Below, in pieces: positions 9,581 to 27,681 of a DNA stretch of 33,862 nucleotides. The position numbers and the translations under genes are program-made. The notes beneath the pieces were generated by a model. It searched no databases and had not been told where the DNA came from. It saw nothing but the letters and a program-made list of their open reading frames with translations. The stretch's first letter is position 1. Each line of letters opens with the position of its first letter. The DNA is from an uncultured Sphingomonas sp. (GTDB lineage: Bacteria > Pseudomonadota > Alphaproteobacteria > Sphingomonadales > Sphingomonadaceae), in contig NZ_CAJYVU010000142.1 in assembly GCF_913778135.1 (NCBI RefSeq), positions 1 through 33,862 of the forward strand, written 5' to 3'.

Positions 9581-9738
9581 AGGGCCTCTCCAAGTCGATG
9601 GTGCGGAGACGGTGATCGGAGCTGCCGCCATCGTCGAGATGTCTGCGCGAATATCGGCTCCGTGATACTCGCCGGCGAGATCGCCCCATGCGCGCGCGCG
9701 CTGCTAGGATCGCGACATCGACTGCACGAGGAAGCATC

Positions 9739-10662: not shown

Positions 10663-12218
10663 ACGAGGCGGCATTCGACTATATCATCGTGGGTGCCGGG
10701 TCGGCGGGCTGCGTGCTCGCCGATCGCCTGACCGCCGACGGTCGATCGAAGGTGCTGTTGCTTGAAGCCGGGCCGACCGATGCGACGCCACTCGTTTCGA
10801 TGCCGAAGGGGTTCGGCAAGTTGCTCGCCGACCCGAAGCGCGTGCACTACATTCCGACCGCAGCGGACGGCGACATTCCGGGCGAGACGTGGATCCGCGG
10901 CAAGATGCTGGGCGGTTCGTCTTCGGTCAACGGCATGATGTATTTCCGCGGCCATCCCGAAGATTATCAGGAATGGGTGGCGCTGGGTGCGACTGGCTGG
11001 GGTTGGGACGTGATGTCGCGCGCGTTTGACGCGACGGAAAAGCAACTTCGACCGTCCGTATGCCAGGAACATGGCGAACTTGGCGATCGGCTGATCGCAG
11101 CGGCGGGCGCGCTGGGTGTGCCGCGCGTCGACAACCTCAACCACGACGAGCAGTTCGGCATCGGTTATGCGCCGCGCACGATCCGCGACGGTCGCCGCAC
11201 CAGCGCGGCGGCGGCGTTTCTGAAGCCGGCAATGCGTCGCCACAACCTTAAGGTCGAGACCGGTGTTTCGGTTGATCGCATCACGTTCGAAGGGACGCGG
11301 GCGACCGGCGTGATCGGCCGCCGCGGCGGCGCGCCGGCTCAATACAACGCTCGCCGTGAAGTTATCATCAGCACCGGCGGGCTGTTCAGTCCACAGCTCC
11401 TCCAGCGTTCCGGCATCGGTCCGGCAGCGTCGTTGGCGTCGCTCGGCATTCCGGTGATCCACGACGCGCCGGGCGTCGGGGCCAACCTGCTCGAGCACCG
11501 GCTTCAGATGATGCACTATCGGTTGAACCGGCCGATCAGCGCTAACCCCCGGTTGCAGGGGCTCGGCCTGATGCGCAGCGTGCTTCGATATGCACTCGGG
11601 CGCAAGGGCGTGCTGGCAGCGGGTTCCTACGACGTGGGCGCCTTCTTCAAGAGCGACCCGGCGCTTGAACGACCCGATTGCGAGTTGCTGATGGCGCCCT
11701 ATGGCTATCTGTTCCAGCCCGATGGGTCGACCAAGGTTCCCGATTTTCCGAGCTTTCACATGTTCGGCTATCCGCTTAGATCGCGAAGCAAGGGAACGAT
11801 CCGGTTGGCGAGTGCGGACCCCGACGTCCCGGCAGTCATCAAGCCCAACTATTTGTCAGACCCATACGACCGACAAGTGACGGTGGCGATGTTTCGTTTC
11901 ATCCGCCGGCTGGTCGCAACTACGCCGCTAGCCGACGTGATCGCCGAAGAACTAGCACCGGGTCGCCAGATCGAGACCGATCAGGATATCATCGACCTCT
12001 ACCGCACGCGCGGACAGGCCGGCTATCATGCCTGCGGCACCGTCGCGATGGGGGGCGAGGACGCGCCGCTCGATCCCGAACTACGCGTGCGCGGGGTAAG
12101 TGGCCTCCGTGTGGTGGACGGATCGGTGATGCCGACGATGCTGTCGGCCAATACCAACGGTCCGATCATGGCGATCGGTTGGCGCGCCGCCGACCTGATC
12201 CTGCGCCGCCGCAACTGA
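10659..12218 (+). CDS. GMC family FAD-dependent oxidoreductase (choline dehydrogenase-like)
   Basis: This 519-residue glucose-methanol-choline oxidoreductase carries the N-terminal FAD motif DYIIVGAGSAGCVLADRL, the GMC signature LGGSSSVNGMMYFRG, and the C-terminal active site with H457 (GYHACGT) and N500 (SANTNGP). Members oxidise primary or secondary alcohols, passing electrons to quinones or O2. The GTG start overlaps the stop of the hydrolase gene by four bases. Together they could process an alcohol released by ester or lactone opening, which is inference. A weaker hairpin follows its stop at 12226-12251. Confidence 0.93.
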   Translation: MNEAAFDYIIVGAGSAGCVLADRLTADGRSKVLLLEAGPTDATPLVSMPKGFGKLLADPKRVHYIPTAADGDIPGETWIRGKMLGGSSSVNGMMYFRGHPEDYQEWVALGATGWGWDVMSRAFDATEKQLRPSVCQEHGELGDRLIAAAGALGVPRVDNLNHDEQFGIGYAPRTIRDGRRTSAAAAFLKPAMRRHNLKVETGVSVDRITFEGTRATGVIGRRGGAPAQYNARREVIISTGGLFSPQLLQRSGIGPAASLASLGIPVIHDAPGVGANLLEHRLQMMHYRLNRPISANPRLQGLGLMRSVLRYALGRKGVLAAGSYDVGAFFKSDPALERPDCELLMAPYGYLFQPDGSTKVPDFPSFHMFGYPLRSRSKGTIRLASADPDVPAVIKPNYLSDPYDRQVTVAMFRFIRRLVATTPLADVIAEELAPGRQIETDQDIIDLYRTRGQAGYHACGTVAMGGEDAPLDPELRVRGVSGLRVVDGSVMPTMLSANTNGPIMAIGWRAADLILRRRN

Positions 12219-12334: not shown

Positions 12335-14812
12335 TCAGAACTTCGCCGACAGCTCGATCCCATAGGTTCGAGGCTCGCCAAAAGCCGAGGCCGAGAAGCC
12401 CGGACCGGCCCCTGGGGTAACGCCGCCGATAATCGGGCCGCCGCTGGCAAGGTACAGGCCGCCCTGCATGTAGTATTTGTTGAAGATGTTGTTGGCGAAC
12501 AGCGCGACGCCAAAGTTGCTGCCGGCGATCCGACTGATCCCGATCCTGGCGTTGGCGAGGGCATAAGCGGGCTGAACCGCGTCGAGATCGAAATCGTCCA
12601 GCGGAGTATCGCTTCTATAGGTCGCGTTGACGTTAGCGGTCAGGTCGCCGACGCTGTCGATCTCGCGGTTATAGGTGATACCACCGCCAACCTGATGCTT
12701 TGGAATTGAGTTGAGCGCAATCGTGCCGTTGTCGCCCTTGACCACCTTGATGTCGACATACGAGTAGAACAGGTTGAACGACAAGCCGTTATCGAACGAT
12801 AGGTTGGCCTCAAACTCGCCGCCGTAATTGTGCTGCGCGCCGATATTGCTGACGATGGTTGCGATCGCGGTACCAACAAGAATGTTCTGCTGACGCTGAA
12901 CATTTTTATAGTTCTGAAAGAAGCCGGCCAGATTAGTTGATAGTTTCCCGGATCCTATGTCAAAACTGTTCTTGATGCCCGCTTCATACTCTTGGACCGT
13001 CTCCGGCTGAAATGGCTGGAATGCCAGGTCCGACTGCGCGCGTAGGTTGAACCCGCCCGATCGATATCCACGACGAGCGGAGATGTAGAGATTGAGGTCG
13101 GAGTCGGACTGATACTGTAGCGTCGTGTCCCAGGTCACCGCGTCGTTCTTGAGGGTGCGCGTGAATGAGCAGTTGTTGAGCGGCACTGTGCCGAGGCCGT
13201 TGAACAAACAGAAACCCGTTCCGACCCCCGGAATGACAAGCTTGGGCAGCGATGGGCTGACCGTTGCGCGGCGCAGGTCGTTGTTATAGCGGACGCCGCC
13301 TGACAATTTGAAGTGATCCGTCAGCTTGTATGTTCCGGCCAGGTAGAAGGCGTAACTCCGCGCCAGACCCTCCCCGATCTGGCTTTGATTGAAGGCGTCG
13401 GCGTTCTGCGAGAGGAATGAACCGGCCAGCGCAGGAATGCTCGAGGCGTAGCCGATCGATGTCAACTGCGGGAACGTGTTGGCGAAGGCGCCGTCGGTGC
13501 CCTTCTCAAGGAAGAAGTAGCCGCCCGTCGTCAGCTGGAACGCTTCGCCGAACGGCGTTCCTTGCATCTGGAACTCTTCGCTGTAGTTTTCGGTGTTTGA
13601 AAACTGGACCGGGAAGATCAAAGAGTTTGGACTGCCGTCATAGTCTGTATGATTGACGTAATCGATCTTGCGATAGCCAAAGATATTCTTGAACGTAACG
13701 GGCCCGGCATCAAGTGTCGTGCGGTTGACGACGCCGTAGTTCTTGATCCGGTTGTACGGTATCCCCGCGCTGCCATCGAGCGCCGCGTTCGTGCCGATCC
13801 TGCCCGTATCGATCCGATAGCGACCCAACGCCAGCGCTCGATTGAAATTGCCGATGATATCCTGCGGCGGGGCACCGGCTGCCAACGGGAAGAAGGGCGA
13901 AGCGCCCACCTGCTGCGCGATGACGGTGGGTTGGCCGTTGCGCGGATCGATCAGATTGTAGCCGATCAGCTTCAGGCCCGTGCCATGCTCGTCCTGCTTG
14001 AGATAGTCAAAGGCCGTGTAGTTCCGAAGTCGACCAAGCTTGAGTTCGCCTGACACACGAAAAGCATGATAATGCTGGTCGTCATAATCACGACCGGTAC
14101 TGACGTCGCGGGTAAAGCCGGTCCGATCACGATATTTACCGGCCACGCGAAAAGCAAATACGTCCTTAATCACGGGAACGTTGACCATCCCCGACACGTC
14201 TTTCAGATCATAATTGCCATATTGGCCGGTGATATCGGCGTGATATTCACCCAGGTCGGGATGATTGGGTTCGACCAGCACCGCACCGCCGGTCATGTTC
14301 CGACCGAACAATGTGCCCTGCACACCCTTGAGCACCTGCACGCTCTGAATATCGTAGAAGTTGCTGCCGAAACCGTAAGGGCGGGGCAGCACCACCTCTG
14401 CATAATAGGTTCCGACGGGTTGATCGGTAAGCAGCTGTGCTTCCTGAGTGCGCTGCCCGCGGATTGCATAGGCGACGCTGGTGCGGCTGGCACCGTTTGT
14501 CGTGACTGACAGTGAAGGCGTTTGGCTTTGAAGACCGAAGATGTCGGTGACCCCGCGTTCAACGAGCGACGCGCCCGAGACGGCGGTGATCGAGATCGGC
14601 ACGTCCTGAATGCGTTCCTCGCGGCGACGGGCGGTCACGACGACTTCGCCGCTCGCGGCACGCCCCGACGCCTCTGTGTCGTCTTGGCTGGCATCAACAG
14701 GGTTTTGTGCGGCCGGGGCGGCAGGCGCGGGCTCTGGCGTGACGGCTTGGGCGTTTGCAGTGGCCGCCAGCGCGAGCTGACTGACCGCGGCGATCAAATA
14801 CGCGGCTTTCAT
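12335..14812 (-). CDS. TonB-dependent outer-membrane receptor
   Basis: This 825-residue protein has a Sec signal peptide (MKAAYLIAAVSQLALAATANAQA, cleaved about residue 22), a low-complexity Ala/Pro linker, and then GEVVVTARRREERIQDVPIS, the start of a TonB-dependent receptor plug. VQVLKGVQGTLFGRNMTGGA is the conserved plug core. A long beta-barrel follows, rich in alternating aromatic and polar strands, ending in AFGEPRTYGIELSAKF with the terminal Phe used for outer-membrane assembly. GGGAGGAGGATCC before the ATG is a strong ribosome-binding site. Such receptors in sphingomonads often take up substrates other than iron, including sugars, lignin-derived aromatics and hydrophobic compounds. 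Its place between catabolic genes suggests uptake of their substrate, but this is inference. Confidence 0.95.
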   Translation of the reverse strand: MKAAYLIAAVSQLALAATANAQAVTPEPAPAAPAAQNPVDASQDDTEASGRAASGEVVVTARRREERIQDVPISITAVSGASLVERGVTDIFGLQSQTPSLSVTTNGASRTSVAYAIRGQRTQEAQLLTDQPVGTYYAEVVLPRPYGFGSNFYDIQSVQVLKGVQGTLFGRNMTGGAVLVEPNHPDLGEYHADITGQYGNYDLKDVSGMVNVPVIKDVFAFRVAGKYRDRTGFTRDVSTGRDYDDQHYHAFRVSGELKLGRLRNYTAFDYLKQDEHGTGLKLIGYNLIDPRNGQPTVIAQQVGASPFFPLAAGAPPQDIIGNFNRALALGRYRIDTGRIGTNAALDGSAGIPYNRIKNYGVVNRTTLDAGPVTFKNIFGYRKIDYVNHTDYDGSPNSLIFPVQFSNTENYSEEFQMQGTPFGEAFQLTTGGYFFLEKGTDGAFANTFPQLTSIGYASSIPALAGSFLSQNADAFNQSQIGEGLARSYAFYLAGTYKLTDHFKLSGGVRYNNDLRRATVSPSLPKLVIPGVGTGFCLFNGLGTVPLNNCSFTRTLKNDAVTWDTTLQYQSDSDLNLYISARRGYRSGGFNLRAQSDLAFQPFQPETVQEYEAGIKNSFDIGSGKLSTNLAGFFQNYKNVQRQQNILVGTAIATIVSNIGAQHNYGGEFEANLSFDNGLSFNLFYSYVDIKVVKGDNGTIALNSIPKHQVGGGITYNREIDSVGDLTANVNATYRSDTPLDDFDLDAVQPAYALANARIGISRIAGSNFGVALFANNIFNKYYMQGGLYLASGGPIIGGVTPGAGPGFSASAFGEPRTYGIELSAKF

Positions 14813-15089
14813 GGATCCTCCTCCCCAGTATGGCGGTCACGACCCCGGCTCAGCGGTGCGTTGTCCCGGCGCAAAACCTCTTCCCCAATCGCGCGCCGCG
14901 CAATCCGGGATCGGCGTCCTGGGGCCAAGCATCACATTGGCGATGTCGCCCCTGCGCCCCTTGGGTGACGAGGGAAAGCGCGTCAGGAAGTGACGATGTC
15001 ATCGCCACTGCTGTCGGAAGCGTTCGTCGTCGACGCCGTTTCGTGGCATCGGTGATCGGCAACCTGCCGTGCGTTTCAAGAGGTTCGTG
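14813..15089. promoter_or_regulatory. Divergent control region between TonB receptor and E1 alpha genes
   Basis: The 277 bases between these divergent genes contain no convincing gene. An imperfect 19-bp palindrome GTGACGATG-T-CATCGCCAC lies at 14990-15008 with one mismatched pair, and GGCGATGTCGCC at 14939-14950 is a shorter inverted repeat sharing the CGATGTC core. Either may be a regulator site. No clear -35/-10 pair was found. Confidence 0.35.
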
Positions 15090-16070
15090 ATGACCAGCAA
15101 CTACGCCCCCGATGCAGCCACGCAGCTCGAAATCTATCGCCGCGTCGCGTTGCTCAAGGCCAATGACGAGCGCAGCCGCAAGGTCATCAAGACCGGTCGC
15201 CTCGTCATGCCCTATTACAGTTATCGCGGGCAGGAGGTGATCCCCGCCGCGACGATGACCGCGCTGGAAGACACCGATTACCTCGTCACCATCTATCGCG
15301 GCATTCACGACATGCTGGCCAAGGGCATGCCGCTGAAGGATCTGTGGGCGGAGGTCGCGGGCCGCGTCGACGGGACCTGCAAAGGCAAGGGTGGACCGAT
15401 GCACCTGACCTATCCGGACAAGGGGATCATGGTGACGACGGGGATCGTCGGGTCGTCGATGCCGATCGCGTGCGGCCTCGGCTGGGGATCGCAGCTATCC
15501 GGCGACGGGCGGGTCGCGGTGGCGACGTTCGGCGACGGCGCCTCGAACATTGGCGCGTTCCACGAGAGCCTTAATCTAGCGGCGGTGTGGAAGCTGCCGG
15601 TGATCTTCCTCTGCCAGAACAACCTTTATGGCGAGCACACGACCTACGAGAAGGCGACGTCAGCGCCGCGGATCGCGGATCGGGCGGGCAGCTATGCGAT
15701 CCCGGGTGTCCGCGTCGACGGCAACGATCCCATTGAGATGTACGCCGCCGCGCGAGAGGCGGTGGCTCGCGCGCGGGCGGGAGAGGGGCCGACCCTGATC
15801 GAGGCGATGACCTTCCGCTTCCACGGCCACGTCTTCGGCGATGCCGATGGCTATATGGACAAGGCGCAGAAGGCCGCTGCGGTCGAGGCCGACCCGGTAC
15901 CCCGTTTCCGCGCCCGTCTGATCGCCGAGGGTATCGCGACCGAGGAGGAACTGGCGGCGGCCGAGGCCGAGATCGAGGCCGCGATCGACGAGGCGGTCGA
16001 GTTCGCGCTCGCCTCTCCGTTCCCCGAACTCGATGAACTGACCCGCGACGTCTACGGAGTTGCAGCATGA
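15090..16070 (+). CDS. Thiamine-dependent 2-oxo-acid/acetoin dehydrogenase E1 component, alpha subunit
   Basis: This 326-residue protein is the alpha subunit of a heterotetrameric E1 that decarboxylates a 2-oxo acid (pyruvate, branched-chain oxo acid) or cleaves acetoin with thiamine diphosphate. The ThDP/Mg2+ motif runs from GDG at 148-150 to N178 (FLCQNN), and YRGIHDMLAKGMPL and KGKGGPMHL are typical of the acetoin/PDH alpha family. RFHGHVFGDADGYMDK matches the phosphorylation-loop region. The ATG at 15090 is preferred because AAGAGG lies just upstream; an in-frame GTG at 15069 is less likely. Its end overlaps the beta gene by four bases (ATGA). No E2 or E3 gene follows, only a lone lipoyl domain. 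Confidence 0.92.
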   Translation: MTSNYAPDAATQLEIYRRVALLKANDERSRKVIKTGRLVMPYYSYRGQEVIPAATMTALEDTDYLVTIYRGIHDMLAKGMPLKDLWAEVAGRVDGTCKGKGGPMHLTYPDKGIMVTTGIVGSSMPIACGLGWGSQLSGDGRVAVATFGDGASNIGAFHESLNLAAVWKLPVIFLCQNNLYGEHTTYEKATSAPRIADRAGSYAIPGVRVDGNDPIEMYAAAREAVARARAGEGPTLIEAMTFRFHGHVFGDADGYMDKAQKAAAVEADPVPRFRARLIAEGIATEEELAAAEAEIEAAIDEAVEFALASPFPELDELTRDVYGVAA

Positions 16071-17095
16071 CCACCGACCTCGCTGATCCGCCTGCCGCGG
16101 CAAAGGTGAAGCCCGTCACCATCCTCCAGGCGATTAACGCCGCGATCGCCGATGCGATGGAGGCCGACGACAAGGTCGTCGTTCTAGGCGAGGATGTCGC
16201 CGATCCTGAGGAGGGCGGCGTGGTCGGGGTGACCAAGGGACTGTCGAACCGGTTCGGCGAGCATCGCGTCCGTTCGACGCCGATCGCCGAGCAGGCGATC
16301 ATCGGCACCGCGATCGGCGCGAGTCTCGTCGGCTACAAGCCCGTGGCGGAGATCATGCTGATGAACTTCACGACGGTGGCGATGGACATGATCGTCAATC
16401 ACGCCGCCAAATTGCGCTTCATGTCGGGCGGTCAGACGCATGTGCCGATCGTCATCCGTACCATGACGGGCACGGGCTTCTCCTCGGGCGGACAGCATTG
16501 CGACTACCTTGAGGCGTGGTTCGCGCATACCGCGGGCATGAAGGTGGTGGCGCCGTCCAACCCCGCCGATGCCTATGGCCTGATGCGCGCGGCGATCGAT
16601 GATCCCGATCCCGTGCTCTACATCGAGAATCTGCCCGCCTATTGGAGCGGCGGCGAAGCGGCGCAGCCCGGCCATGTGGTGCCACTGGGCAAGGCTTGGA
16701 TCGCGCGCGAGGGCACCGACGTCACGATCGTAAGCTACTCGCGCGTCCTGAACGAGGCGGTCGCAGCCGCCGACGCGATCGAGGCGGCTGGCTTTTCGGC
16801 CGAGGTCATCGATCTGCGCACCATCTCGCCCTGGGATCGCGAGACGGTTCTCGCTTCGGTGCGCAAGACGGGACGCTGTCTCGTCACGCACGAGGCGGTG
16901 ACGCAGTTCGGCGTCGGTGCCGAGATCGCGGCGGTCCTCTCCGAGGAACTGTTCGGCGTCCTCAAGCGCCCCGTTGCCCGGCTTGGCGCACCCTATGCGC
17001 CCGTGCCTTTCTCCAAGCCACTCGAAGCCGCTTACGCGCCCGACGCCAAGCGGATCGCCGAGGCGGCAATCACGCTCTGCAAACAGGATAACTGA
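16067..17095 (+). CDS. Thiamine-dependent 2-oxo-acid/acetoin dehydrogenase E1 component, beta subunit
   Basis: This 342-residue protein is the transketolase-like beta subunit that completes the E1 active site with the preceding alpha subunit. Typical segments are VVVLGEDVADPEEGGVVGVT, RVRSTPIAEQAIIGTAIGAS, YKPVAEIMLMNF and, in the C-terminal domain, VIDLRTISPWDRETVLASV and TGRCLVTHEAV. Full length and an uninterrupted frame suggest a working enzyme. Start and stop overlaps (ATGA with the alpha gene, a two-base gap to the lipoyl gene) indicate tight co-translation. The substrate cannot be told apart between pyruvate, acetoin and longer oxo acids by eye. Confidence 0.93.
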   Translation: MTTDLADPPAAAKVKPVTILQAINAAIADAMEADDKVVVLGEDVADPEEGGVVGVTKGLSNRFGEHRVRSTPIAEQAIIGTAIGASLVGYKPVAEIMLMNFTTVAMDMIVNHAAKLRFMSGGQTHVPIVIRTMTGTGFSSGGQHCDYLEAWFAHTAGMKVVAPSNPADAYGLMRAAIDDPDPVLYIENLPAYWSGGEAAQPGHVVPLGKAWIAREGTDVTIVSYSRVLNEAVAAADAIEAAGFSAEVIDLRTISPWDRETVLASVRKTGRCLVTHEAVTQFGVGAEIAAVLSEELFGVLKRPVARLGAPYAPVPFSKPLEAAYAPDAKRIAEAAITLCKQDN

Positions 17096-17097
17096 CG

Positions 17098-17328
17098 ATG
17101 GCGACCGAAGTACTGCTCCCCAAGCTCGGCTTTTCGATGAACGAGGGCGTGCTCGCCGAGTGGCTGGTTGCCGACGGCGGGCAGGCGGTCGAGGGCGAAC
17201 CGCTGTTCGCGCTCGAAAGCGACAAGTCGACCAACGAGGTTGAAAGCCCGGCCAGCGGCACGTTGAAGATCCTGAAGGAGCCGGGCGAAACCTACGAGGT
17301 CGGGACGGTTCTGGGTATCATCGAATGA
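17098..17328 (+). CDS. Free-standing lipoyl-domain protein
   Basis: This 76-residue protein is just one lipoyl domain. The lipoylation lysine is K43 in ESDKSTNEVESPASG, and LPKLGFSMNEGVLAEWLV at the start and GTVLGIIE at the end bound a complete domain. In known 2-oxo-acid dehydrogenases this domain is the N-terminal arm of the E2 acyltransferase, but here a stop follows and no peripheral-subunit-binding or catalytic E2 domain is encoded downstream. The next gene is convergent and unrelated. It starts two bases after E1 beta, so it should be made together with E1 and act as a mobile acyl carrier, comparable in form to GcvH. A biotin-attachment role is less likely, since the biotinyl motif is normally MKM. 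Confidence 0.9.
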   Translation: MATEVLLPKLGFSMNEGVLAEWLVADGGQAVEGEPLFALESDKSTNEVESPASGTLKILKEPGETYEVGTVLGIIE

Positions 17329-17332
17329 CGGC

Positions 17333-17361
17333 CCCGGCGCCCGTCGCGGGCGGGCGCCGGG
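17333..17361. terminator. GC-rich hairpin between convergent operons
   Basis: CCCGGCGCCCG pairs exactly with CGGGCGCCGGG (11 bp) around a seven-base loop, placed four bases after the lipoyl gene stop and seven bases from the stop of the convergent acyl-CoA dehydrogenase gene. No T-run follows on either side, so it may be a two-way attenuator or a Rho-assisted terminator. Confidence 0.5.
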
Positions 17362-17367
17362 CACCCA

Positions 17368-18555
17368 TCATCGTGTGTCGCGCTTGATTTTCTTGGCCAG
17401 GCTCCAGCGATGGACCTCGCTCGGTCCGTCGTAGATGCGGAAGGCGCGGATTTCGCGGAACACCTGTTCGACGATGGTGTCGCCGGTCACGCCGGTCCCG
17501 CCCATCACCTGCACGCAGCGATCGGCCACGCGCATTAGCGCTTCCGACACGGCGACCTTGGCGATCGAACTCTGCGCGGTGCCGAGATCGCCGGTATCGA
17601 GGATGCCTGCCGCCCAGTCGGTCATCAGCTCGGCCTGTTTCAGGTCGATGAGATTGTCGGCGAGCATGAAGCCGACACCCTCGTGATCGATCAGCGGCTT
17701 GCCGAAGGCCTGTCGTTTCAGGGCATAGGCGGTCGCAAGCTCGTTCGCGCGCGTCGCCGCGCCCAGCCAGCGCATGCAATGCGACAGCCTCGCGGGGCTG
17801 AGGCGGATCTGGGCGTAGCGCAATCCTTCGTCCGGCGCGCCGAGCACGGCATCGCCGTCAACGTGCAGATCGTTGATCGACAGTACCGAATGACCACCGG
17901 GCATCGAGCTGTCGATGGTGTCGAGCACGCGCTCGATCGTGATCGCCGGGTGGGGCAGGTCGATCAGGAACATCGTCGCGCGCACGGGCTCTCCCTCGGA
18001 CGAGGTTCGCGCCATGACGATGCCGACCTTCGCGCCGGCATAGCCGGTGATGAACGCCTTTCGCCCGTTGATCGTCCAGCCGTTGCCCGCTGGCGTGGCC
18101 GTGGTCTTCATCATCGACGGATCCGAACCCGCGCCGCCGTCGACCGCTGGTTCGGTCATCAGGAAGGCCGAGCGCGCATCGCCGGCGATCAGGGGGACAA
18201 GGAAGCGCGCCTTCTGCGCCTCGGTCGCGACCTTCCCCAACAGGAACATGTTGCCCTCGTCGGGGGCCATGGTGTTGCAGGCGAGGGGGCCGAGCGGAGA
18301 CAGGCCCGACTTGCGCAGCACGTACGCCGTTTCGCGCTGGGTCAGGTGCCCGCCGCCGGGCAGGATGTGCGGCGTCAGCACCCCGGCCTGGCGTGCCAGC
18401 CCGCGCAGCTCGTTGACGAGCGCGTCGGTCGGGCCATGGGCGTCGCGACGCGGATCGCGCTCGAACGGGGCGACGACATCGCGGACGAAGCGTTCGACCC
18501 GGTCGCCGATCTCGGCGGCGCGCGGCGTGACCGCTGGACTTTCATAGGTGGACAT
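17368..18555 (-). CDS. Acyl-CoA dehydrogenase, ACAD10/11-like
   Basis: This 395-residue flavoprotein has the usual acyl-CoA dehydrogenase layout: a helical N-domain, the FAD-binding beta-domain with FLMTEPAVDGGAGSDPSMM and GWTINGRKAFITGY, and a C-terminal helical domain with KRQAFGKPL, QVMGGTGVTGD and IYDGPSEVHRWSLAKKI. The DGP-SEVH ending is typical of the ACAD11 branch, with D where classic enzymes carry the catalytic Glu. The start at 18555 overlaps the stop of the phosphotransferase gene by one base (TGATG); longer upstream frame is not coding-like. In vertebrate ACAD10/11 an APH-type kinase domain and this dehydrogenase domain are fused, which suggests the two bacterial genes work as one unit on 4-hydroxyacyl-CoAs. 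That substrate is inference. Confidence 0.92.
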   Translation of the reverse strand: MSTYESPAVTPRAAEIGDRVERFVRDVVAPFERDPRRDAHGPTDALVNELRGLARQAGVLTPHILPGGGHLTQRETAYVLRKSGLSPLGPLACNTMAPDEGNMFLLGKVATEAQKARFLVPLIAGDARSAFLMTEPAVDGGAGSDPSMMKTTATPAGNGWTINGRKAFITGYAGAKVGIVMARTSSEGEPVRATMFLIDLPHPAITIERVLDTIDSSMPGGHSVLSINDLHVDGDAVLGAPDEGLRYAQIRLSPARLSHCMRWLGAATRANELATAYALKRQAFGKPLIDHEGVGFMLADNLIDLKQAELMTDWAAGILDTGDLGTAQSSIAKVAVSEALMRVADRCVQVMGGTGVTGDTIVEQVFREIRAFRIYDGPSEVHRWSLAKKIKRDTR

Positions 18556-19619
18556 CAGCGGGTTCCCGTCTGTTCCCAGCCGATCCGCGCCAGTTTGGGC
18601 AGCGTGTCGACCAGCGATTGTGCCGTCGCCGAGGCGGCATTGCCGCGGATCAGCCGTCCTTTCACGCCGTGCAGGATCGCGGCGAAGCGGAACATGTTGA
18701 AGGCAAGGTAGAAGTCGAGCGCGTCGATGCCCCCGCGCCCCGTCCGCCGGCAATAAGCGGCGACATAGTCGGCTTCCTCCGGGATGCCCAGAGTGGCGAG
18801 GTCGGCCCCTGCAAAACCGCCGAGCACGTCGGGCGGAAGGCGGTACATCATCAGGTGATAGGTGAAGTCGCCGAGCGGATGGCCCAGCGTCGACAACTCC
18901 CAGTCGAGCACCGCGAGGACGCGCGGCCCGGCATCGTCGAACATGAAGTTGTCGCCGCGCAAGTCGCCATGGACCAGCGTCGTCTCGTCACCCGGCGGTA
19001 TATTCGCGCCCAGCCAGTCGATGAGCCTGTCAAGATGCTCGTTGCGCCCGGCATCGACGTCCTCGCGATACTGGCGCGACCAGCGAGCCAGCTGCCGCTC
19101 GAAGTAATTGCCGGGCTTGCCATAGCTCGACAGGCCGAGCGCATCGACATCCAGCGTGTGGAGCCTGGCGATCGTCGCGTTCATCGCGTCGAAATGCGCG
19201 GCGCGGTCGGCCGGATCGAGGCCCGGCATCGTCGAGTTCCAGAAGATGCGGCCCGGCACGAACGCCATGACGTAGAAGGGCGTGCCGATCACGCCCGCAT
19301 CCTCGCAGAGCGCGAGCGGTCGGGCGACGGGAAAGTCCGCATCGGAAAGCGCCGCGATCACCCGGTACTCTCGCTCGACGGCGTGCGCACCCGGCAGGAT
19401 CGGCCCAGGCGGCTTTCGGCGCAGGACATAGCGGCGCCCAGGCGTGTCGAGGCGATAGGTCGGGTTCGACTGGCCGCCGTTGAACTGGGTCACCGTCGGC
19501 GGGCCGGCATAGCCGGGCAGGTTGGCGGTCAGCCACGCATCGAGCGCCTCGACGTCGAAGCCGTGACCCGCGCGGATCGCACCGGTGCCGCCGAACGCCT
19601 GTTGGTGGTCGATGCTCAT
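18555..19619 (-). CDS. APH-family phosphotransferase (ACAD10/11 kinase domain-like)
   Basis: This 354-residue protein has the aminoglycoside phosphotransferase/choline kinase fold. [10 protein letters not shown] (H217, catalytic D219, N224) and VLDWE (D239, metal-binding) are intact, with an ATP-binding N-lobe including [13 protein letters not shown] and YVLRRKPPG. The pattern is that of the ACAD10/11 kinase domain and of LvaA from levulinate degradation, which phosphorylate the 4-hydroxyl of 4-hydroxyacyl-CoA. It overlaps the thiolase gene by four bases (ATGA) and the acyl-CoA dehydrogenase by one. Antibiotic resistance is unlikely given this setting. The substrate here is inferred only from the neighbour and the family. 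Confidence 0.88.
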
Positions 19620-20794
19620 ACGATCTCAAACAGGCCGGCCGCGCCGATGCCGCCCGCCGCGCACATGGTGACGACGGCGTATTTCTCGCCGCGCCGCTTC
19701 GCCTCGATCAGGGCATGGCCGGTCATCCGCGATCCCGACATGCCGAACGGATGGCCGATCGCGATCGCGCCGCCGTCGACGTTCAGGCGCGCCGGGTCGA
19801 TGCCGAGCGTGTCGCGGCAGTATAGGACCTGTACAGCGAACGCCTCGTTCAGCTCCCACAGGCCGATGTCTTCGATTCGGAGCCCGGCGCGTTCGAGCAG
19901 GCGCGGCACCGCGAAGACGGGACCGATCCCCATCTCGTCGGGCTCGCAGCCGGCGACCGCGAAGCCGCGGAAGATTCCGAGCGGGGCGAGCGACCGACGC
20001 TTCGCCTCATCCGCGCTCATGACCACGCAGACGCTGGCGCCGTCCGACAATTGGCTAGCATTGCCCGCGGTGATGCAGCCGCCCTCGACCACGGGCTTCA
20101 GCGCGGCGAGACCTTCGTAGGTCGTATCCGACCGGTTGCCCTCATCCCGGTCGAGCGTCACGGTTTCCTCGCCCGTTACCTCGCCCGCCTTGTCCTTCAA
20201 AAGCTTAACGGCCGTCACGGGCACGATCTCGGCATCGAAGCGGCCGGTTGCTTGTCCCGCCGCGGTGCGCTGCTGACTTTCGAGCGAATAGCGGTCCTGC
20301 GCGTCGCGATCGATGCCGTAGCGGCGGGCGACAGTTTCGGCGGTCTGGATCATCGAATCATAGGCGCCTGCGACGTTCGTCTTGAGCCATGGGTTGATCG
20401 CCCGGTCGCTGCGCGTGTTCGGCAAGGCCAGCGAGCAACTGTCGAGACCGCCGGCGATATAGATGTCGCCCAGGCCCGCCATCACGCTCTGTGCGGCGAT
20501 CGCGATCGTGTTGAGGCCCGAGGCGCATTTCCGATCCAGCGACACACCGGGCACGGACACTGGCAGCCCCGCGCGCAATGCGCTGGTGCGGCCGATATTG
20601 CCGCTCTGCGGCCCCTCCAGGCGCGCTGCGCCCAGGAGTACGTCGTCGATCTCCTCACCCGACAGGCCGGCGCGGCGCGCCGCCTCGGCGACGACGATAC
20701 CGCCAAGCTCGGCCCCGTCGAGATTGTTGAGCGCCCCGCGCCCGGCACGACCGATCGGCGTGCGGGCGGTGGCGACGATGACGGCATCGCGCAT
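19616..20794 (-). CDS. Thiolase (acetyl-CoA C-acyltransferase)
   Basis: This 392-residue protein cleaves 3-ketoacyl-CoA with CoA. The nucleophile is C90 in [13 protein letters not shown], the histidine H348 in [13 protein letters not shown], and the second cysteine C378 in [12 protein letters not shown], so all catalytic residues are present. AITVIV-type N-terminus reads [17 protein letters not shown], and [14 protein letters not shown] is typical of degradative thiolases. GAGGAAG lies before the ATG, and the short acyl-CoA dehydrogenase gene ends 14 bases upstream. Its position in the operon points to beta-oxidation of the acyl chain handled by the neighbouring dehydrogenases. A dead thiolase gene of different sequence lies about 2.3 kb away at 23067-23992. 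Confidence 0.95.
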
Positions 20795-20808
20795 CGGTAT
20801 CTTCCTCG

Positions 20809-21780
20809 TCAGTCGGTAACGGCGGTCAGGTCCGCCCAGAATCGGTCGGCACCGCGCGCGCAGATCCGATCGCCCAGTACGCCCGACCAGTGGCTGTCAC
20901 CGCCGAATTCGGATCGCCAGGCCCAGAGCCGACGGGTCAGCGGATGCAGCGAGTATTCGTGCGTGAAACCGATCGCGCCGTGAACCTGATGGGCAAGCGC
21001 GGTGCCCACGCCGACCGCCCGGTTGGCGCGCAGCTTGGCCGCGGCGATCGCATAGTCGCCGTCGCCGCGCCCTTGCGCCTGCGCGGCACCAAGTGCGGCA
21101 CAATTCGCGGCCGCGGCCTCGCACGCAAAGGTCGCGAGGCTTTGCTGGACCGCCTGGAACTTGGCGAGGGGGCGCCCGAACTGCTTGCGCTCGTTCACAT
21201 AAGCGACCGACATCGCAAGGCTGGCATCGAGCGCACCGGCGATCTGCGCCGCGCGGGCAAGCGCGCCGAGCGCGAATATGTCGGCGGGAAGGCGCTTGGC
21301 CGTTGCACCCTCGAAAGCCAAGTTCGCGCGCGGTTCGCCCGCGATGTTGGCGGCCGACCCGATTGAGGCCTGCGCCATGTCGAGGATCATCGATCCGCCC
21401 CCCGGTGCCGGGGCGACGACATAAGCTGCGCCCTCCGCCCAGGCCACGCCGGTAATTGAGCCGTCGAAGCGATCTCCCGCCAGCGTCCCTTCGACCGCGG
21501 GCGCGATCGTGCCGCGTCCGTCGAATGCCCCATCCGCCAACGCTGCCGCGATCGTTGCCTCGACAACCGGCAGGGCGAGGGCGCGGTAGCCCGCCAGGCG
21601 AAAGACGATTACCGCGTCAGACCAGCTACCGCCAAATCCCCCCCGGCCGGCGTCGACCATCAGCGATGGCAGTCCCACCGCTTCGACCGCGTCCCACGAC
21701 GCCCCGGACATCTCTCGCGCGCTCAGATCGGCGAACAGGTTATCCGCCATCTCGGCAATCATCTGCTGCTGTTCGTTCAT
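20809..21780 (-). CDS. Short acyl-CoA dehydrogenase family protein, likely partner subunit
   Basis: This 323-residue protein is shorter than the usual 380. It keeps a C-terminal helical domain ([21 protein letters not shown], then [20 protein letters not shown]), but its beta-domain is reduced and lacks the usual FAD-domain motif. In steroid-degrading actinobacteria, pairs of full-length and reduced dehydrogenases form alpha2-beta2 tetramers with only half the usual FAD sites; the neighbouring 379-residue dehydrogenase, overlapping by four bases (ATGA), is the natural partner. The start at 21780 is set by that overlap and by the [17 protein letters not shown]-terminus; the longer frame is not coding-like. 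That the two proteins combine is inference. Confidence 0.88.
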
Positions 21781-22916
21781 CGAAGTCCCAGTCCGCGCGC
21801 TATGATACCCTTCAGGATTTCTCTCGTCCCGCCACGCAACGAGAAGGAGGGCGACAGCTGAAGCAGATGCCCCAGCATCAGACCGAGCGGATCGGGGCCG
21901 GCGGGATCGACCTCGATCGCGGCCTGGATCAGTTCGGGAACGGCCTGTTCGAAGCTGTTGCCAAGGTCCTTGACCATCGTCGCCTCGAGCGCCGGATCCT
22001 CGCCGCGGGCGATCTTGACCGCGATGGACGCCGACATCAGGCGAAGCGTCCATGTCTCAGCCGCGAGCCGCCCGATGAGTGCGCGGACCGCCGCATCTGG
22101 ATGCGCGCCGGCACGGCGGATCAGCGCGGTCAGCAGCGTAGTCGAGGACAGATAACGCTCCGGCCCCGAGCGCTCGAGCGACAGTTCGGCCGTCACCTGC
22201 CGCCAGCCGTCACCCTCGACCCCGACCAGCGCGCTGGCGGGAAGGCGGACGCCGTCGAAGAATACCTCGTTGAAGTCGTGCCCGCCGGTTAGGTCGATGA
22301 TCGGCCGGATCGAGACGCCTGGCGCGTCCATCGGCACGAGGAATTGACTGAGGCCGGCGTTGCGTTCCGATCCCTCCTCGGTCCGCATCAAGGCGATCAT
22401 GACATGCGCGTGGTGAGCGTTGGTGGTCCACACCTTCTGCCCGTCGAGGATCCAGTCGTCGCCGTCGCGCCGTGCGGTCGCACGGACCGAGGCGAGATCG
22501 GATCCCGCGTTGGGCTCCGACAGGCCGATACAGGCGTATATTTCGCCGCGGGACATGCCGGGTACCCAGCGCTCCCGCGCTTCTTCGGTGCCATAGCGGA
22601 TGAGCAGTGCGCCGGTCTGACGATCGGCGATCCAATGCGCTCCGACCGGCGCGCCGGCCGCCAGCAACTCTTCCAGCACGACATAACGTTCGATTGAAGA
22701 GCGTTCGTGCCCGCCATAAGCTCGCGGCCAGGTCATGCCGATCAGTCCGGCGGCGCCTAGCGTGCGACTGAATTCAGGATCGGGCACCGCCCAGCTGTTG
22801 GCAAGGCGACGCGGATCGCTGCCATCGACATGTGCCGCCACCAGAGCACGGACCTCGGCACGGAGCGCTGCTGCACTTTCGGGCCATTCGATCGATTCGG
22901 GAACGAAAGTCTGCAA
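21777..22916 (-). CDS. Acyl-CoA dehydrogenase, full-length subunit
   Basis: This 379-residue acyl-CoA dehydrogenase has FAD/substrate segments IGLSEPNAGSDLASVRATA and WILDGQKVWTTNAHHA, then SLRGGTREILKGIIARGLGL at the C-terminus. The place of the C-terminal catalytic Glu seen in MCAD is taken by Gly, so the base is probably an upstream Glu such as that in AELSLERSG, as in several FadE enzymes. No ATG fits; a TTG at 22916 with AGGGGAG five bases upstream is the likely start. It is the first gene of a five-gene minus-strand operon, and its end overlaps the short dehydrogenase gene by four bases. Substrate is unknown; ETF from the left edge of the window is a plausible acceptor. Confidence 0.9.
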   Translation of the reverse strand: MQTFVPESIEWPESAAALRAEVRALVAAHVDGSDPRRLANSWAVPDPEFSRTLGAAGLIGMTWPRAYGGHERSSIERYVVLEELLAAGAPVGAHWIADRQTGALLIRYGTEEARERWVPGMSRGEIYACIGLSEPNAGSDLASVRATARRDGDDWILDGQKVWTTNAHHAHVMIALMRTEEGSERNAGLSQFLVPMDAPGVSIRPIIDLTGGHDFNEVFFDGVRLPASALVGVEGDGWRQVTAELSLERSGPERYLSSTTLLTALIRRAGAHPDAAVRALIGRLAAETWTLRLMSASIAVKIARGEDPALEATMVKDLGNSFEQAVPELIQAAIEVDPAGPDPLGLMLGHLLQLSPSFSLRGGTREILKGIIARGLGLR

Positions 22917-23066
22917 AGCGACTCCCCTGAAGAGACGACGGGGCCTTGCGGCACTATTGCACCGCAACCAACAGGACCGGATCGATCATCACGGACACGA
23001 TAACAGCGTGCGCTGACGTGCCGACATCGCGTTCGTGACGGCTGCGATGCTTGTTTGCTGCCGCGC

Positions 23067-23992
23067 CGCAGTATCCTGATACTATCCAGCGTACCAACCG
23101 AGATTGCAGTGTTCGGCGGTGTATCGAAGGTCGTGCAGATCGCAGAACTTGGCGCGCTGGTGTTTTGCAAGGAGCGGCCCGCGCCGGCGTCCCCCCGGCG
23201 CATGCCGAGCCGGTGATGCTCCCTTACCCTCGCCGACGCCTATGTGTCCTGCGTTGAAACGGGGGAGTGCAAGTTGTGCTGCTGCGCTGACCGTCAATCG
23301 GCTGGGCGGGGCGGAGAGCGTGAGACGCGCGCCGCACTTTGTCACGATAATGCGCTTCGGCCAGCGCCTGCGTGACGCGGTCATGCTGGACGCATTGACG
23401 CAGACGCTGAGCGATCCCGTATAAATCTACCACACGTGCATCGCCGCTGATAATGTCGCGCGGGCCGAAGATAGCGACCGCGTAAGCCACGATACTCACA
23501 TCAAGGAAACGGCGGCATTGAAGCCGGCCCTTGCGCTGGGCGGCACGGTTATGGCCGGGATCCATAACGGCGCGGCAGCGCTGGTTTTCGCCTCTCCCGC
23601 CAGCACCGCACCTACGGGCAAGCGGCCGACCACGTGGATGGTAAGATGGGATCTCGCCGCGGTAGAGCCGTCGTTGAAGGGCTTGGCCCAGTCGAAGCGG
23701 TGGCGATGGGGCTCGCTCGCGCGGGCTTTGCTTTGGGCAGATCGAGATGTCGAACCGAACGAGGCCTTCACGGCACAGCGCTTGTGCCGTCGCTGATCGT
23801 CTGAGGTTCGATCGGGCACGTACGAAGGTCAACGGGTCGGCGATCTCGCTAGGTCAGTCGATCGGTGCGCCCCAGCAACAAACCTAATGAAGTGGCTTTA
23901 CGAACTATGGCGCAGCGGCGGCCGCTGCTGCTGCCCTGCTTTGATAAGCATCGGCGGCGGGCCTCGCCATGGTTGTGGAAGTGCCGTCCTGA
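23067..23992 (+). pseudogene. Decayed thiolase (acetyl-CoA acyltransferase) gene
   Basis: The gap between the acyl-CoA dehydrogenase operon and cysQ is a complete but broken thiolase. In order on the plus strand: ILSSVPTEIAVFGG and AELGALVF (from 23079); ARAGVPPAHAEPVML in another frame; TVNRL joined directly to GGAESVRRAPHF (from 23281), deleting the nucleophile-cysteine block; DALTQTLSDPV-stop; IAADNVAR, LKPALALGGTVMAG and NGAAALVFAS; GLGPVEAVAMGLARAG (shifted, about 23679-23730); NEAFTAQ at 23758-23778; KVNGSAISLGQSIGA (about 23825), where the active-site GHP is GQS; and GLAMVVEVPS ending at 23992. All three frames are used and at least five stops interrupt them. It is unlike the intact thiolase of the operon in detail, so it is not a recent duplicate. 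Confidence 0.8.
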
Positions 23993-24035
23993 TCGGTGCA
24001 CGATCGGCGGGTGCGATGCGCGTCCGCCGATCGTG

Positions 24036-24797
24036 TCAGTTTGCGGCCTCAGACGTTTTCTGAGTCTCCCGTAGTGTCGCAAGAACCTGTCCGGCTAGCG
24101 CCTTGGGGCAGATGAGCAGGTCGGGCAGGTACACGTCTTCGCGATTGTAGCGCAGCGGCGTGCCGTCGATCCGCGAGCAATGGAGGCCGTGGGCAAGGGC
24201 GACGGCGACGGGTGCCATCGAGTCCCATTCATACTGGCCGCCGGTGTGGAGGTAGATGTCGGCCTCGCCGCGAACCACCGCCATCGCCTTTGCCCCCGCC
24301 GAGCCCATCGGAATGAGTTCGGCGCCCAGACGCTCGGCGACGGCGATGGCCTCAGGAGCGGGGCGGGTGCGGCTGACGACCATGCGCAGGGGATCGGCTG
24401 GCGGTTGTAGCGGCTCGGCCCGGTCAGAGCGAAGGACCACGCCCGCATCGGGCAGCGCCACTGCGCCGACCACCGGCTCGCCGTCGATGGCAAGGCCGAC
24501 ATGCACTGCCCAGTCGGCACGCGCCTCGCCATATTCGCGGGTGCCGTCGACGGGATCGATGATCCAGACGCGCGATCTGGTCAGACGCGTGCCGTCACAC
24601 TTCGCTTCTTCGGACAGAAGGCCGTCGTCAGGACGCGCCTCGCGCAACGCGTGGACGAGGAAGGCATTGGCGGTCTGGTCTCCCGCCTTGCCAAGCGCCT
24701 TGGGCGAGAAAATCCCGCTCGCCCGCACGTCGCGCAGGATGCGCCCGGCGGTCTCGGCCAGATGCGCCGCAAGGTCGGCGTCGTTCATCGCGCTCAT
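24036..24797 (-). CDS. cysQ: 3'(2'),5'-bisphosphate nucleotidase CysQ
   Basis: This 253-residue inositol-monophosphatase-fold enzyme hydrolyses PAP (3'-phosphoadenosine 5'-phosphate) to AMP, removing the product of PAPS-dependent reactions. The metal-binding set is visible: D40, LSEE at 62-64, [13 protein letters not shown] with D81 and D84, and QYEWDSMAP late in the protein. The length fits. Its start overlaps the cysNC stop by four bases (ATGA), so it is the last gene of a cysD-cysNC-cysQ operon. The close association with PAPS synthesis is functionally sensible, since PAP inhibits sulfotransferases and PAPS reductase. Confidence 0.93.
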
Positions 24798-26713
24798 GGG
24801 ATCAGCCTCGCGACGATCGCGTCGGCGGCCTCCTCGGCGGTCATGCCGGTCGTGTCGATGCGGATCTCCGGATCGTCGGGGGCCTCATAGGGGCTGTCGA
24901 TGCCGGTGAAGTTGGCGAGCTGGCCCGCGCGCGCCTTGGCATAAAGGCCTTTCACGTCGCGCGCCTCCGCCTCGGCCAGCGGCGTGTCGATATGCACCTC
25001 GATGAACTCGCCGGGCGCCATCATCCGGCGCACCATCTCGCGCTCGGCGCGGAAGGGCGAGATGAAGGCGGTGATGACGATCAGGCCGGCATCGGTCATC
25101 AGCTTGGCTACTTCGCCCACCCGGCGGATATTCTCCACCCGGTCGGCATCAGTGAAACCCAGGTCCTTGTTGAGGCCATGGCGGACATTGTCGCCGTCGA
25201 GCAGGAAAGTGTGCCGGTTCATCCGCGCCAGCTTCTTCTCGACGAGATTGGCGATCGTCGACTTGCCCGCGCCCGACAGCCCGGTGAACCAGAGGACCGC
25301 GGCCTTCTGGTTCTTGAGCGCGGCGTGATGCTCGCGGTCGAGGTCGACGGGCTGCCAGTGGACGTTCTGCGACCGGCGCAGGCTGAAGTGCAGCATTCCC
25401 GCCGCGACCGTCGCGTTGGTCAGCTTGTCGATCAGCACGAACCCGCCGAGCGTGCGGTTGTCGCCGTAAGCCTCGAACACGATTGGCTTGTCGGTCGAAA
25501 GATTGGCGACGCCGATCGAGTTCAAGTCGAACGTCTTGGCCGCCAGCTTCTCCATCGTGTTGACGGCGATCTGGTATTTAGGCGCCTGTACTGTCGCACT
25601 CACGGTTTGCGTCGCAAGCTTCAGCCAGTAGCTGCGGCCCGGCAGCATCGCCTCGTCCGCCATCCAGACGAAGGTCGCCTCAAACTGGTCGGCGGCCTGC
25701 GGGGGCGCGTCGGCGGCTGCGATCACATCGCCGCGCGAGCAGTCGATCTCGTCGGTGAGCGTCAGCGTCACTGACTGGCCCGCGACCGCCACATCGATGT
25801 CACCGCCGAAGCTGACGATGCGCTGGACGCTGCTCGTCTTTCCCGAGGGCAGCACGCGGATTTTGTCGCCGGGGCGCACCTCGCCGCCGGCGATCAGCCC
25901 GGCGAACCCGCGAAAGTCGAGGTCAGGGCGATTGACCCACTGAACGGGCAGGCGGAACGGCCTTGCGCGATCGCGCTCGGCATCGATCTCGACGCTTTCC
26001 AGATGCTCGACCAGCGACGGCCCCTCGTACCAGGGCGTGTTGGGGGAGGGGGCGGTGATGTTGTCGCCCCTGAAGCCAGAAATCGGCATCGGCGTGAAAT
26101 CGGTGATGCCGATACTTTCGGCGAACGCGCGATAATCCGCGACGATGTCATCAAACTTCTGCCGGTCGTAGCCGACGAGATCCATCTTGTTTACCGCCAG
26201 CACGAGGTGGCGGATACCGACCAGGTGCGCGAGATAGCTGTGCCGCCGCGTTTGCGTCAGCACGCCCTTGCGAGCGTCGATCAGGATGACGGCTAGGTCG
26301 GCGGTCGACGCGCCGGTCACCATGTTGCGGGTGTATTGTTCGTGCCCAGGCGTATCGGCGACGATGAATTTGCGCTTCTCCGTTGCGAAGAAACGGTAGG
26401 CGACGTCGATCGTGATACCCTGCTCGCGCTCGGCGGCGAGGCCGTCGACCAGCAGCGCGAAATCGATCTCCTGCCCTTGCGTACCCACCCGCTTCGAATC
26501 GCTCTCCAGCGCGGCGAGCTGATCCTCGAAGATCATCTTGGAATCATAGAGCAGGCGCCCGATCAGCGTCGATTTGCCGTCGTCGACCGAGCCGCAGGTG
26601 ATGAAGCGCAGCAGGCTCTTGTTGCGATGAAGCTCGAGATAGGCATCGATGTCTTCGGCGATCAGGCGATCGACCTGATAGGCACCGGCATCGGCAGCGT
26701 GAACCGTGGCCAT
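24794..26713 (-). CDS. cysNC: Bifunctional sulfate adenylyltransferase subunit 1 / adenylylsulfate kinase CysNC
   Basis: This 639-residue fusion has two parts. Residues 1 to about 440 are CysN, a GTPase of the EF-Tu type with GSVDDGKST (41-49), DTPGH (120-124) and NKMD (175-178), driving ATP sulfurylase. Residues from about 450 to the end are APS kinase, with P-loop GLSGAGKST (478-486), [16 protein letters not shown] and [13 protein letters not shown]. With CysD it converts sulfate to APS and then PAPS. The start overlaps the cysD stop by one base (TGATG). The kinase half makes PAPS rather than leaving APS, as needed by sulfotransferases. The fusion is common in proteobacteria and is intact here. 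Confidence 0.97.
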
Positions 26714-27615: not shown

Positions 27616-27669
27616 CGGGAGCTCCCTGGCAATGCACGCAGCTTCCCCCCACGAGCTTGCGCGCACACC

Positions 27670-27681
27670 TCCCATATGGGA
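27670..27681. promoter_or_regulatory. 12-bp perfect palindrome between cysD and the LuxR-type regulator gene
   Basis: TCCCATATGGGA is a perfect palindrome in the 78-bp divergent gap, partly overlapping the GGGAAGG ribosome-binding site of the regulator gene. It is a candidate operator for control of one or both transcripts. The call rests on position and symmetry only. Confidence 0.35.

Follow-up and report, generated by a model that had tools for sequence, protein, structure and literature searches.

Does a bacterial kinase gene that runs by a single base into an acyl-CoA dehydrogenase (ACAD) gene encode, as two proteins, the activities that mammalian ACAD11 joins in one chain, and on what kind of acyl-CoA would such a pair act? 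The question arises from a 33,862-nucleotide stretch of DNA of an uncultured Sphingomonas sp. (assembly GCF_913778135.1, contig NZ_CAJYVU010000142.1, positions 1 to 33,862, forward strand), referred to here in its full length as the window. On its minus strand lie an ACAD11-like dehydrogenase of 395 amino acids (17368-18555), hereafter the window ACAD, and a predicted 4-hydroxyacyl-CoA kinase of APH fold (18555-19619; 354 amino acids, ATG start); ACADs and kinases of the same branch are called window-type. We consider it likely that the pair is a split module for processing 4-hydroxyacyl-CoAs, in which phosphorylation would be followed by elimination of the phosphate, assisted by flavin adenine dinucleotide (FAD), to give a 2-enoyl-CoA. 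Judged by its sequences, the pair seems to represent a separate, widespread and split bacterial branch with its own cognate kinases, coexisting with a canonical ACAD11-type pair in one genome.

Five tightly packed minus-strand genes make up the operon, in the order ACAD-A, ACAD-B, thiolase, kinase and window ACAD. ACAD-A and ACAD-B overlap by 4 bases, a gap of 14 bases separates ACAD-B from the thiolase gene, and thiolase and kinase overlap by 4. At the last junction, the kinase stop codon TGA (18557-18555) and the dehydrogenase ATG (18555-18553) form TGATG, in which the A is the single common base; the intact APH-type kinase gene overlapping the dehydrogenase gene by one base, as described in an earlier note on this DNA, is thus present. 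The open reading frame (ORF) of the window ACAD can be extended upstream to a TTG at 18753, but the ATG at 18555 is the sensible start. The motifs HGDLRGDN, DWE and YDGPSEVH were confirmed in the two translations. A promoter and terminator scan of 17000-24100 returned no promoter-like and three terminator-like sites, the same as in shuffled sequences.

The residues that set ACAD11 apart provide the most direct comparison. In simulations of ACAD11 the 4-phosphate is held by R626, H634 and R637; the acyl-CoA is positioned by R631, an arginine conserved across ACADs, and D753 serves as the catalytic base (PMC12440821). Replacement of R626, H634 or R637 by alanine or leucine was the most disruptive to the elimination step, R637K being only partly so (PMC12440821). 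A helix-breaking proline is described as special to ACAD10 and ACAD11, and a transient use of FAD has been proposed (PMC11342911). In alignments, R251, R256, H259, R262, D376 and P98 of the window ACAD are the equivalents of ACAD11 R626, R631, H634, R637, D753 and the ACAD10/11-specific proline. The codons of R251-R262 (RLSPARLSHCMR) lie at 17770-17805, and those of DGPSEVH, which lies within YDGPSEVH and includes D376, at 17410-17430, both on the minus strand; the latter is the DGP-SEVH ending named in the earlier note. The patterns R....R..HCMR, DG..EV and APD.G occur in all 86 close window-type homologues, a set comprising 80 genome loci (the best 80 of at least 553 confirmed) and six plasmid loci, two of them picked by kinase search. 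An ordinary ACAD from Rhizobium phaseoli has N, R, I, Q, E and S at the same sites, leaving R256 alone in common. By its aligned residues, the window ACAD carries the phosphate-eliminating site predicted from ACAD11, which the ordinary dehydrogenases compared do not have.

The signature extends to six of seven more distant plasmid ACADs (Thermus, Chelatococcus, Paracoccaceae bacterium, Sphingopyxis, Ruegeria and Sphingobium indicum), the seventh being that of R. phaseoli, and a phosphotransferase is annotated near five of these six. The proline is not fully exclusive to the signature: a dehydrogenase at another locus of the window's own genome, L029, has proline in the same column and no HCMR. 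A third signature ACAD variant, ending in DGADEVHKM, is found at L159 (4989-8959) and L160 (3989-7813), with an acyl-CoA ligase gene between ACAD and kinase; at L160 it is adjoined by genes annotated as a KstR regulator, a dehydrogenase of the short-chain dehydrogenase/reductase (SDR) type, a nitronate monooxygenase and an acyltransferase. On plasmid pSRL1 of S. indicum B90A, which has lindane-degradation genes, a signature ACAD lies between linX and gorA (L163, 4962-6200), with no annotated kinase within the 11 kb shown.

At the level of the whole protein, the window ACAD scores above the cut-off for all three Pfam domains (Acyl-CoA_dh_1, 132 bits; Acyl-CoA_dh_M, 52 bits; Acyl-CoA_dh_N, 24.5 bits), and its best solved relatives by sequence are 4hr3 (193 bits) and ACAD11 (175 bits). 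An AlphaFold2 model built from 28 sequences has a mean predicted local distance difference test score of 93.2, and Foldseek's top three entries for it are 4hr3 and the ACAD11 structures 2wbi and 8v3u.

Kinship to ACAD11 is also seen in the kinase, which matches Pfam APH with 185 bits (cut-off 23.2). Compared with solved structures by phmmer, it scores 391 bits against 3dxp and 258.6 bits against the mouse ACAD11 kinase domain, versus 30.7 bits for a hygromycin kinase and 28.1 bits for a macrolide kinase; no choline kinase is among its nine structure-sequence matches. The protein could be imagined as a homologue of antibiotic, choline or thiamine kinases unrelated to acyl-CoA, a view to which its membership of the same Pfam family and its low-scoring matches to models of APH(3'), thiamine kinase and Mph lend some colour. 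Those matches, however, reach 20-29 bits against cut-offs of 205-640, far below the score for the ACAD11 kinase domain; on scores the assignment is ruled out, and we hold it to be exceedingly improbable. The kinase thus does not group with choline or antibiotic kinases, and the kinship of both proteins to ACAD11 claimed in the earlier note stands, as far as the conserved catalytic and phosphate-binding residues can tell. The catalytic Asp and Asn (ACAD11 D220 and N225; HGDLRGDN codons at 18948-18971, minus strand), the alphaC Arg-Glu pair and R176 in ACAD11 numbering are present in 63 of 63 aligned kinase rows; no residue could be matched to the published R86 by number, and the Arg beside the alphaC Glu was scored in its stead. 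In a quick tree, all 20 entered kinases that are linked to window-type ACADs fall in one 36-row clade (support 98).

Gene linkage connects the two proteins outside the window too, and the pairing exceeds chance. In 38 of the 86 loci, the window-type ACAD has a kinase of more than 50% identity no more than 2.5 kb away (33 of 80 genome and 5 of 6 plasmid loci). The association was also surveyed across 241 genomes drawn evenly from the class, the own genome included (ACAD at E<=1e-120, kinase at E<=1e-70, at most 7-8 candidates scored per genome). The ACAD was present in 19 genomes, the kinase in 94 and both in 16; the kinase thus accompanies the ACAD in 16/19 genomes, compared with 78/222 genomes that lack it (Fisher p 3.6e-5, relatedness ignored). 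Two of the three ACAD genomes without a close kinase have a divergent one (~30% identity) directly beside the ACAD. Tandem kinases of the same family, about 40-200 bases apart, occur in 11 genomes of the class (G073, G187, G120, G205, G097, G142, G220, G300, G235, G286 and G269); in G120 they lie at L152 9473-11574, with a window-type ACAD 2.4 kb away.

Kinase and dehydrogenase types were compared, by best hit, at 39 kinase loci (L110-L148) whose flanks reach at most 1.5 kb. At 21 of them a dehydrogenase of the group is visible, in many cases truncated where the locus ends; the flanks of the other 18 show none. In all 21 the types match: 12 pair a window-type kinase with a window-type ACAD, nine pair canonical with canonical, and none is mixed. 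Two of the 12 window-type matches are the same genome counted twice (L110 and L119), and several others are close relatives. Two loci, L041 and L053, hold both dehydrogenase types and one window-type kinase within a few kilobases, which indicates that two systems can share a gene cluster.

The dehydrogenase trees also set the window type apart from the canonical type. The window ACAD and mouse ACAD11 share 32% identity, whereas a canonical protein encoded on contig C130 of its own genome is 55% identical to the mouse and 58% to the human protein. A tree of 47 rows places the 26 window-type and the 6 canonical rows in two starred clades, which are sisters (99/96) on long stems. When the motif columns were masked and intermediates added, the 26 signature rows together with L029 formed a group with 100/100 support, and the signature rows as a single clade were not rejected (p-AU 0.33). 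A single origin of the motif is likely on this evidence. Membership of the ACAD10/11/LvaC branch proper is ruled out by the identity of about 32% and by the separate clades, masked and unmasked; the ACAD trees contain no LvaC or ACAD10 rows, and LvaC was placed by its published identity to ACAD11 and ACAD10. In this the dehydrogenase differs from the picture drawn in the earlier note. Bacterial orthologues are stated to resemble ACAD10/11 far more than they resemble other bacterial enzymes (PMC11342911), a description that, judged from these alignments and trees, does not apply to the window-type branch. The L029 dehydrogenase (5865-7058, contig C50 of the own genome) has the catalytic Asp (IYDGPTEIH) and no HCMR, adjoins the kinase-linked group in trees and may represent either an ancestral condition or a reversion.

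A number of observations weigh against a split ACAD11-like module and have to be set beside this evidence. In the masked tree, L029, which lacks the signature, nests beside the canonical branch (90/60). Because the window ACAD is only ~32% identical to ACAD11, compared with the 55-58% of the canonical protein, it is unsafe to transfer the substrate from ACAD11. The tested kinase residues are also kept by the more distant 9o56 and are thus necessary rather than diagnostic. In the class survey, the third ACAD genome without a close kinase, G250, offers no more than a 54-bit match, located far from the ACAD. Among the 86 homologues, 48 have no detected kinase within 2.5 kb; some loci of the set end near the gene. 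A whole-genome search covering 25 of the 48 found a kinase elsewhere in 25/25 genomes (E<=1e-30), a result weakened by the common background of such kinases (33 of 41 relative genomes, own included, at E<=1e-90) and by the second, kinase-linked window-type ACAD that six of those 25 genomes also carry (L119-L124). Structural comparison separates the families poorly: VIA-align Z scores are 46.5 for 4hr3, 46.4 for 2wbi, 44.9 for isobutyryl-CoA dehydrogenase and 44.5 for ACAD11 8v3u, and because isobutyryl-CoA dehydrogenase outranks the latter, fold alone is not decisive.

The typical fold, these near-equal structural scores, the homologues without a detected linked kinase and the presence of some homologues in otherwise ordinary fatty-acid gene groups would all fit an ordinary oxidising acyl-CoA dehydrogenase whose adjacent kinase serves another purpose. 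Such an enzyme would have to accommodate a catalytic Asp in place of Glu, and two Arg and one His in a pocket that is normally hydrophobic, in every one of the 86 homologues, as well as the agreement of kinase and ACAD types in 21/21 informative loci. Moreover, saturated acyl-CoAs are reported not to be turned over by ACAD10 or ACAD11 under the conditions of that work (PMC12440821). An ordinary dehydrogenase is therefore, in our judgement, unlikely, and the split phosphate-eliminating module is preferred.

In the preferred reading, the kinase would transfer a phosphate from ATP to the 4-hydroxyl of an acyl-CoA. Asp376 of the window ACAD would then take the C2 proton, with transient use of FAD, and the phosphate held by Arg251, His259 and Arg262 would be expelled to leave an ordinary 2-enoyl-CoA for beta-oxidation, without net oxidation. 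Enzymes encoded elsewhere would hydrate and oxidise this enoyl-CoA before the neighbouring thiolase cleaved it, and ACAD-A/ACAD-B would open or continue the beta-oxidation of the same, perhaps bulky, acyl-CoA. What the sequences show directly is the gene structure, the conserved residues, the kinship, the co-occurrence and the agreement of types; catalysis, the position of the hydroxyl, the sequence of steps, the ACAD-A/ACAD-B heteromer and the substrate we infer.

The neighbouring genes bear on the substrate. The thiolase (acetyl-CoA C-acyltransferase; 19616-20794, minus strand, 392 amino acids) scores 396.8 bits against TIGR01930, passing the cut-off of 240.55, and 569 bits against PRK07108 (cut-off 615). 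ACAD-B (20809-21780, minus strand, 323 amino acids) is a shorter dehydrogenase subunit with only the C-terminal Pfam domain; it matches Tcur3481 (6wy8_A) over residues 85-306 with 41.3 bits, and this is its longest match, six ordinary ACADs scoring slightly higher over a shorter C-terminal stretch. ACAD-A (21777-22916, minus strand, 379 amino acids, with a likely TTG start at 22916) is a full-length subunit in which the N-terminal and middle Pfam domains exceed the cut-off and the C-terminal match falls under it. Its best solved match is Tcur3483 (6wy9/6wy8; 167.6 bits, residues 11-377), followed by 4x28, which we take to be FadE26-FadE27. Heteromeric ACADs of the Tcur3483/Tcur3481 and FadE26-FadE27 types act on steroid-CoAs. 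ACAD-A and ACAD-B probably form one heteromeric dehydrogenase of this steroid type, to judge from their domains and matches. Hence, of the thiolase and two further dehydrogenases that the earlier note had counted in the operon, the thiolase is present as stated, whereas the two dehydrogenases look like subunits of a single enzyme. Steroid ACADs of alpha2beta2 architecture have been described (PMC12502768). At L155, in another family, a window-type ACAD has a counterpart of ACAD-A/ACAD-B (65% and 49% identity) at its side.

On the other side of the pair, the window holds a set of predicted oxidative and uptake genes. These include a 3-ketosteroid Delta1-dehydrogenase (KSTD)-like flavoprotein (4173-5909, plus strand; PRK12844, 749.8 bits, just below the cut-off of 789; best solved match 7p18), the alpha subunit of a Rieske ring-hydroxylating oxygenase (6106-7506, plus strand), an SDR (8606-9631) that stands outside the five-gene operon, a GMC oxidoreductase (10659-12218, plus strand) and a TonB-dependent receptor (12335-14812, minus strand; named by reading). 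They are followed on the plus strand by 2-oxoacid dehydrogenase E1 alpha (15069-16070; TIGR03182, 292.5 bits, cut-off 393.85), E1 beta (16067-17095; clustering with L058 17671-18702, which bears transketolase domains) and a stand-alone lipoyl-domain protein of 76 amino acids, named by reading and convergent with the operon (17098-17328). A class III CoA-transferase and electron-transfer flavoprotein subunits are also encoded in the window.

Parts of these surroundings recur elsewhere. Locus L058 has two Rieske oxygenases, an SDR, a GMC oxidoreductase, a distant KSTD-family flavoprotein, E1 beta and E2, and parts of the Rieske/GMC/E1 set are found in L063, L092, L034 and L054. In 95 loci (E<=1e-25, L030 counted), homologues of the GMC oxidoreductase lie inside the locus in seven, of the Rieske oxygenase and the TonB-dependent receptor in five each, of the E1 genes in four each and of the KSTD-like flavoprotein in one, its close counterpart being in L030 only. 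The whole five-gene operon is found in one of the 80 genome loci, again L030, from a Sphingomonas metagenome-assembled genome. The most frequent neighbour is an SDR cluster of 47 members, formed by single linkage and perhaps lumping families, of which 41 of 96 loci have a member no further than 7 kb away (27/43 with a linked kinase, 14/53 without). One member was compared with solved structures; because its matches are type II 3-hydroxyacyl-CoA dehydrogenases, a role as LvaD-like reductase was rejected; NCBIfam gave only below-cut-off matches for three SDRs.

These surroundings, in particular the KSTD-like flavoprotein, the Rieske oxygenase and the GMC oxidoreductase, give a hint of a bulky, ring-derived acyl-CoA rather than linear or lactone-derived chains. 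The same phosphorylate-and-eliminate chemistry could accordingly act on a ring-bearing, branched or steroid- or terpenoid-derived hydroxyacyl-CoA, with the hydroxyl perhaps at another position. The steroid-type matches of ACAD-A, and that of ACAD-B to Tcur3481 among others, speak for such a substrate, as do the nearby KSTD-like and Rieske genes, the partial recurrence of the Rieske, GMC and E1 genes and the frequent SDR with its 3-hydroxyacyl-CoA dehydrogenase match. Against it, the argument is one of neighbourhood, the neighbours in question and the full operon are rare, and heteromeric ACADs and KSTD-family flavoproteins act on non-steroids too. No steroid hydratase or aldolase gene is present in the five-gene operon, the rest of the genome not having been searched for core steroid genes. 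A bulky substrate is, on balance, a serious possibility that falls somewhat short of an even chance.

The simple gamma-hydroxy fatty acid or lactone substrates suggested for the operon at the outset find nothing in it that points to them. The sole hint of a lactonase is an alpha/beta hydrolase at 9688-10662 whose score for UilS, 103 bits, falls short of the cut-off of 400. Hydration of oleate by oleate hydratase, giving 10-hydroxystearate, is one route to 4-hydroxyacyl-CoA. As a source for the present pair it was rejected, with no PF06100 match in the genome (four of 14 controls matched, one of them over the cut-off).

Upstream of the operon, about 1 kb separates ACAD-A from sulfate-assimilation genes (24036-27675, minus strand) encoding a CysQ-like phosphatase (under cut-off), a CysN/CysC fusion and CysD, with no link to the operon seen. 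The intervening 23009-24035 holds weak ORFs only. A 270-base part of it (23661-23926) matches at 71% within the second thiolase gene of L030 (~4283-5440) and may be a gene remnant.

The type of reaction proposed for the split module is already known from work on the lva operon and on ACAD10/11. The reaction of the latter was assigned only in 2024-2025, and their precise mechanism is still described as unclear (PMC12440821). No literature on the window-type branch was found in searches that covered few subscription journals. A diverged branch that keeps the phosphate-binding and catalytic residues allows the importance of individual residues, and the determinants of substrate size, to be tested independently. 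Many genes annotated merely as 'phosphotransferase family protein' and 'acyl-CoA dehydrogenase' would also gain a function, and some of them sit in sphingomonad catabolic clusters where the fate of hydroxylated intermediates is open. A bolder and rather doubtful extension is that bacteria have two parallel, perhaps non-interchangeable, kinase/phosphate-eliminase systems: one, ACAD10/11/LvaC, serving linear 4-hydroxy acids, and the other, the window branch and its separate kinase clade, serving bulky hydroxyacyl-CoAs derived from steroids, terpenoids or other ring compounds. If this were true, phospho-elimination would be a general means of removing hydroxyls that block the beta-oxidation of complex natural products.

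Compared with known systems, the operon shows both likenesses and differences. ACAD-A has its best matches, and ACAD-B one of its matches, among the steroid-type alpha2beta2 ACADs, at moderate similarity (167.6 and 41.3 bits); their two genes are adjacent and overlap in the window. Like LvaA-LvaC of the Pseudomonas putida lva operon, the window pair consists of separate kinase and dehydrogenase genes in an operon, with the same proposed reaction (PMC6692424). In contrast, LvaC is 56-62% identical to ACAD11/10 (PMC11342911), compared with ~32% to ACAD11 for the window ACAD, and the five-gene operon lacks a CoA synthetase, an LvaD-like SDR and a small LvaB-like gene, as read from its genes and their Pfam and NCBIfam matches, with no LvaB sequence used as query. 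A levulinate operon was rejected because the five genes include none like LvaB, LvaD or LvaE.

Plasmid pTT27 of Thermus thermophilus HB8 (L158, 4962-8089) presents a signature ACAD (47% identical to the window ACAD) followed by a phosphotransferase, a 116-amino-acid DUF6285 protein and a histidine phosphatase. In P. putida a 12-kDa LvaB is reported to cooperate with LvaA, and in P. citronellolis the LvaA homologue has a histidine phosphatase gene next to it (PMC6692424). Because of this gene order and the size of the protein, DUF6285 may, as a guess, be the LvaB family; a profile search of the window's own genome gave no DUF6285 match (two of 14 controls matched).

Within the same genome, the canonical ACAD11-type pair on contig C130 has both protein types and the same signature. 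It differs from the window pair in sequence, at 49% identity for the kinase and 32-34% for the dehydrogenase, and belongs to the ACAD11 branch. With mammalian ACAD11 and ACAD10, the window pair shares the combination of kinase and dehydrogenase, the catalytic Asp, HCMR, the upstream Arg, the proline, and the kinase residues D220, N225 and R176; for ACAD10, whose sequence lies outside the comparison, the likeness rests on ACAD11 and on published ACAD10/11 features. ACAD11, however, is one fused chain, whereas in the window the two functions are divided between two genes, the dehydrogenase of which lies on a branch of its own.

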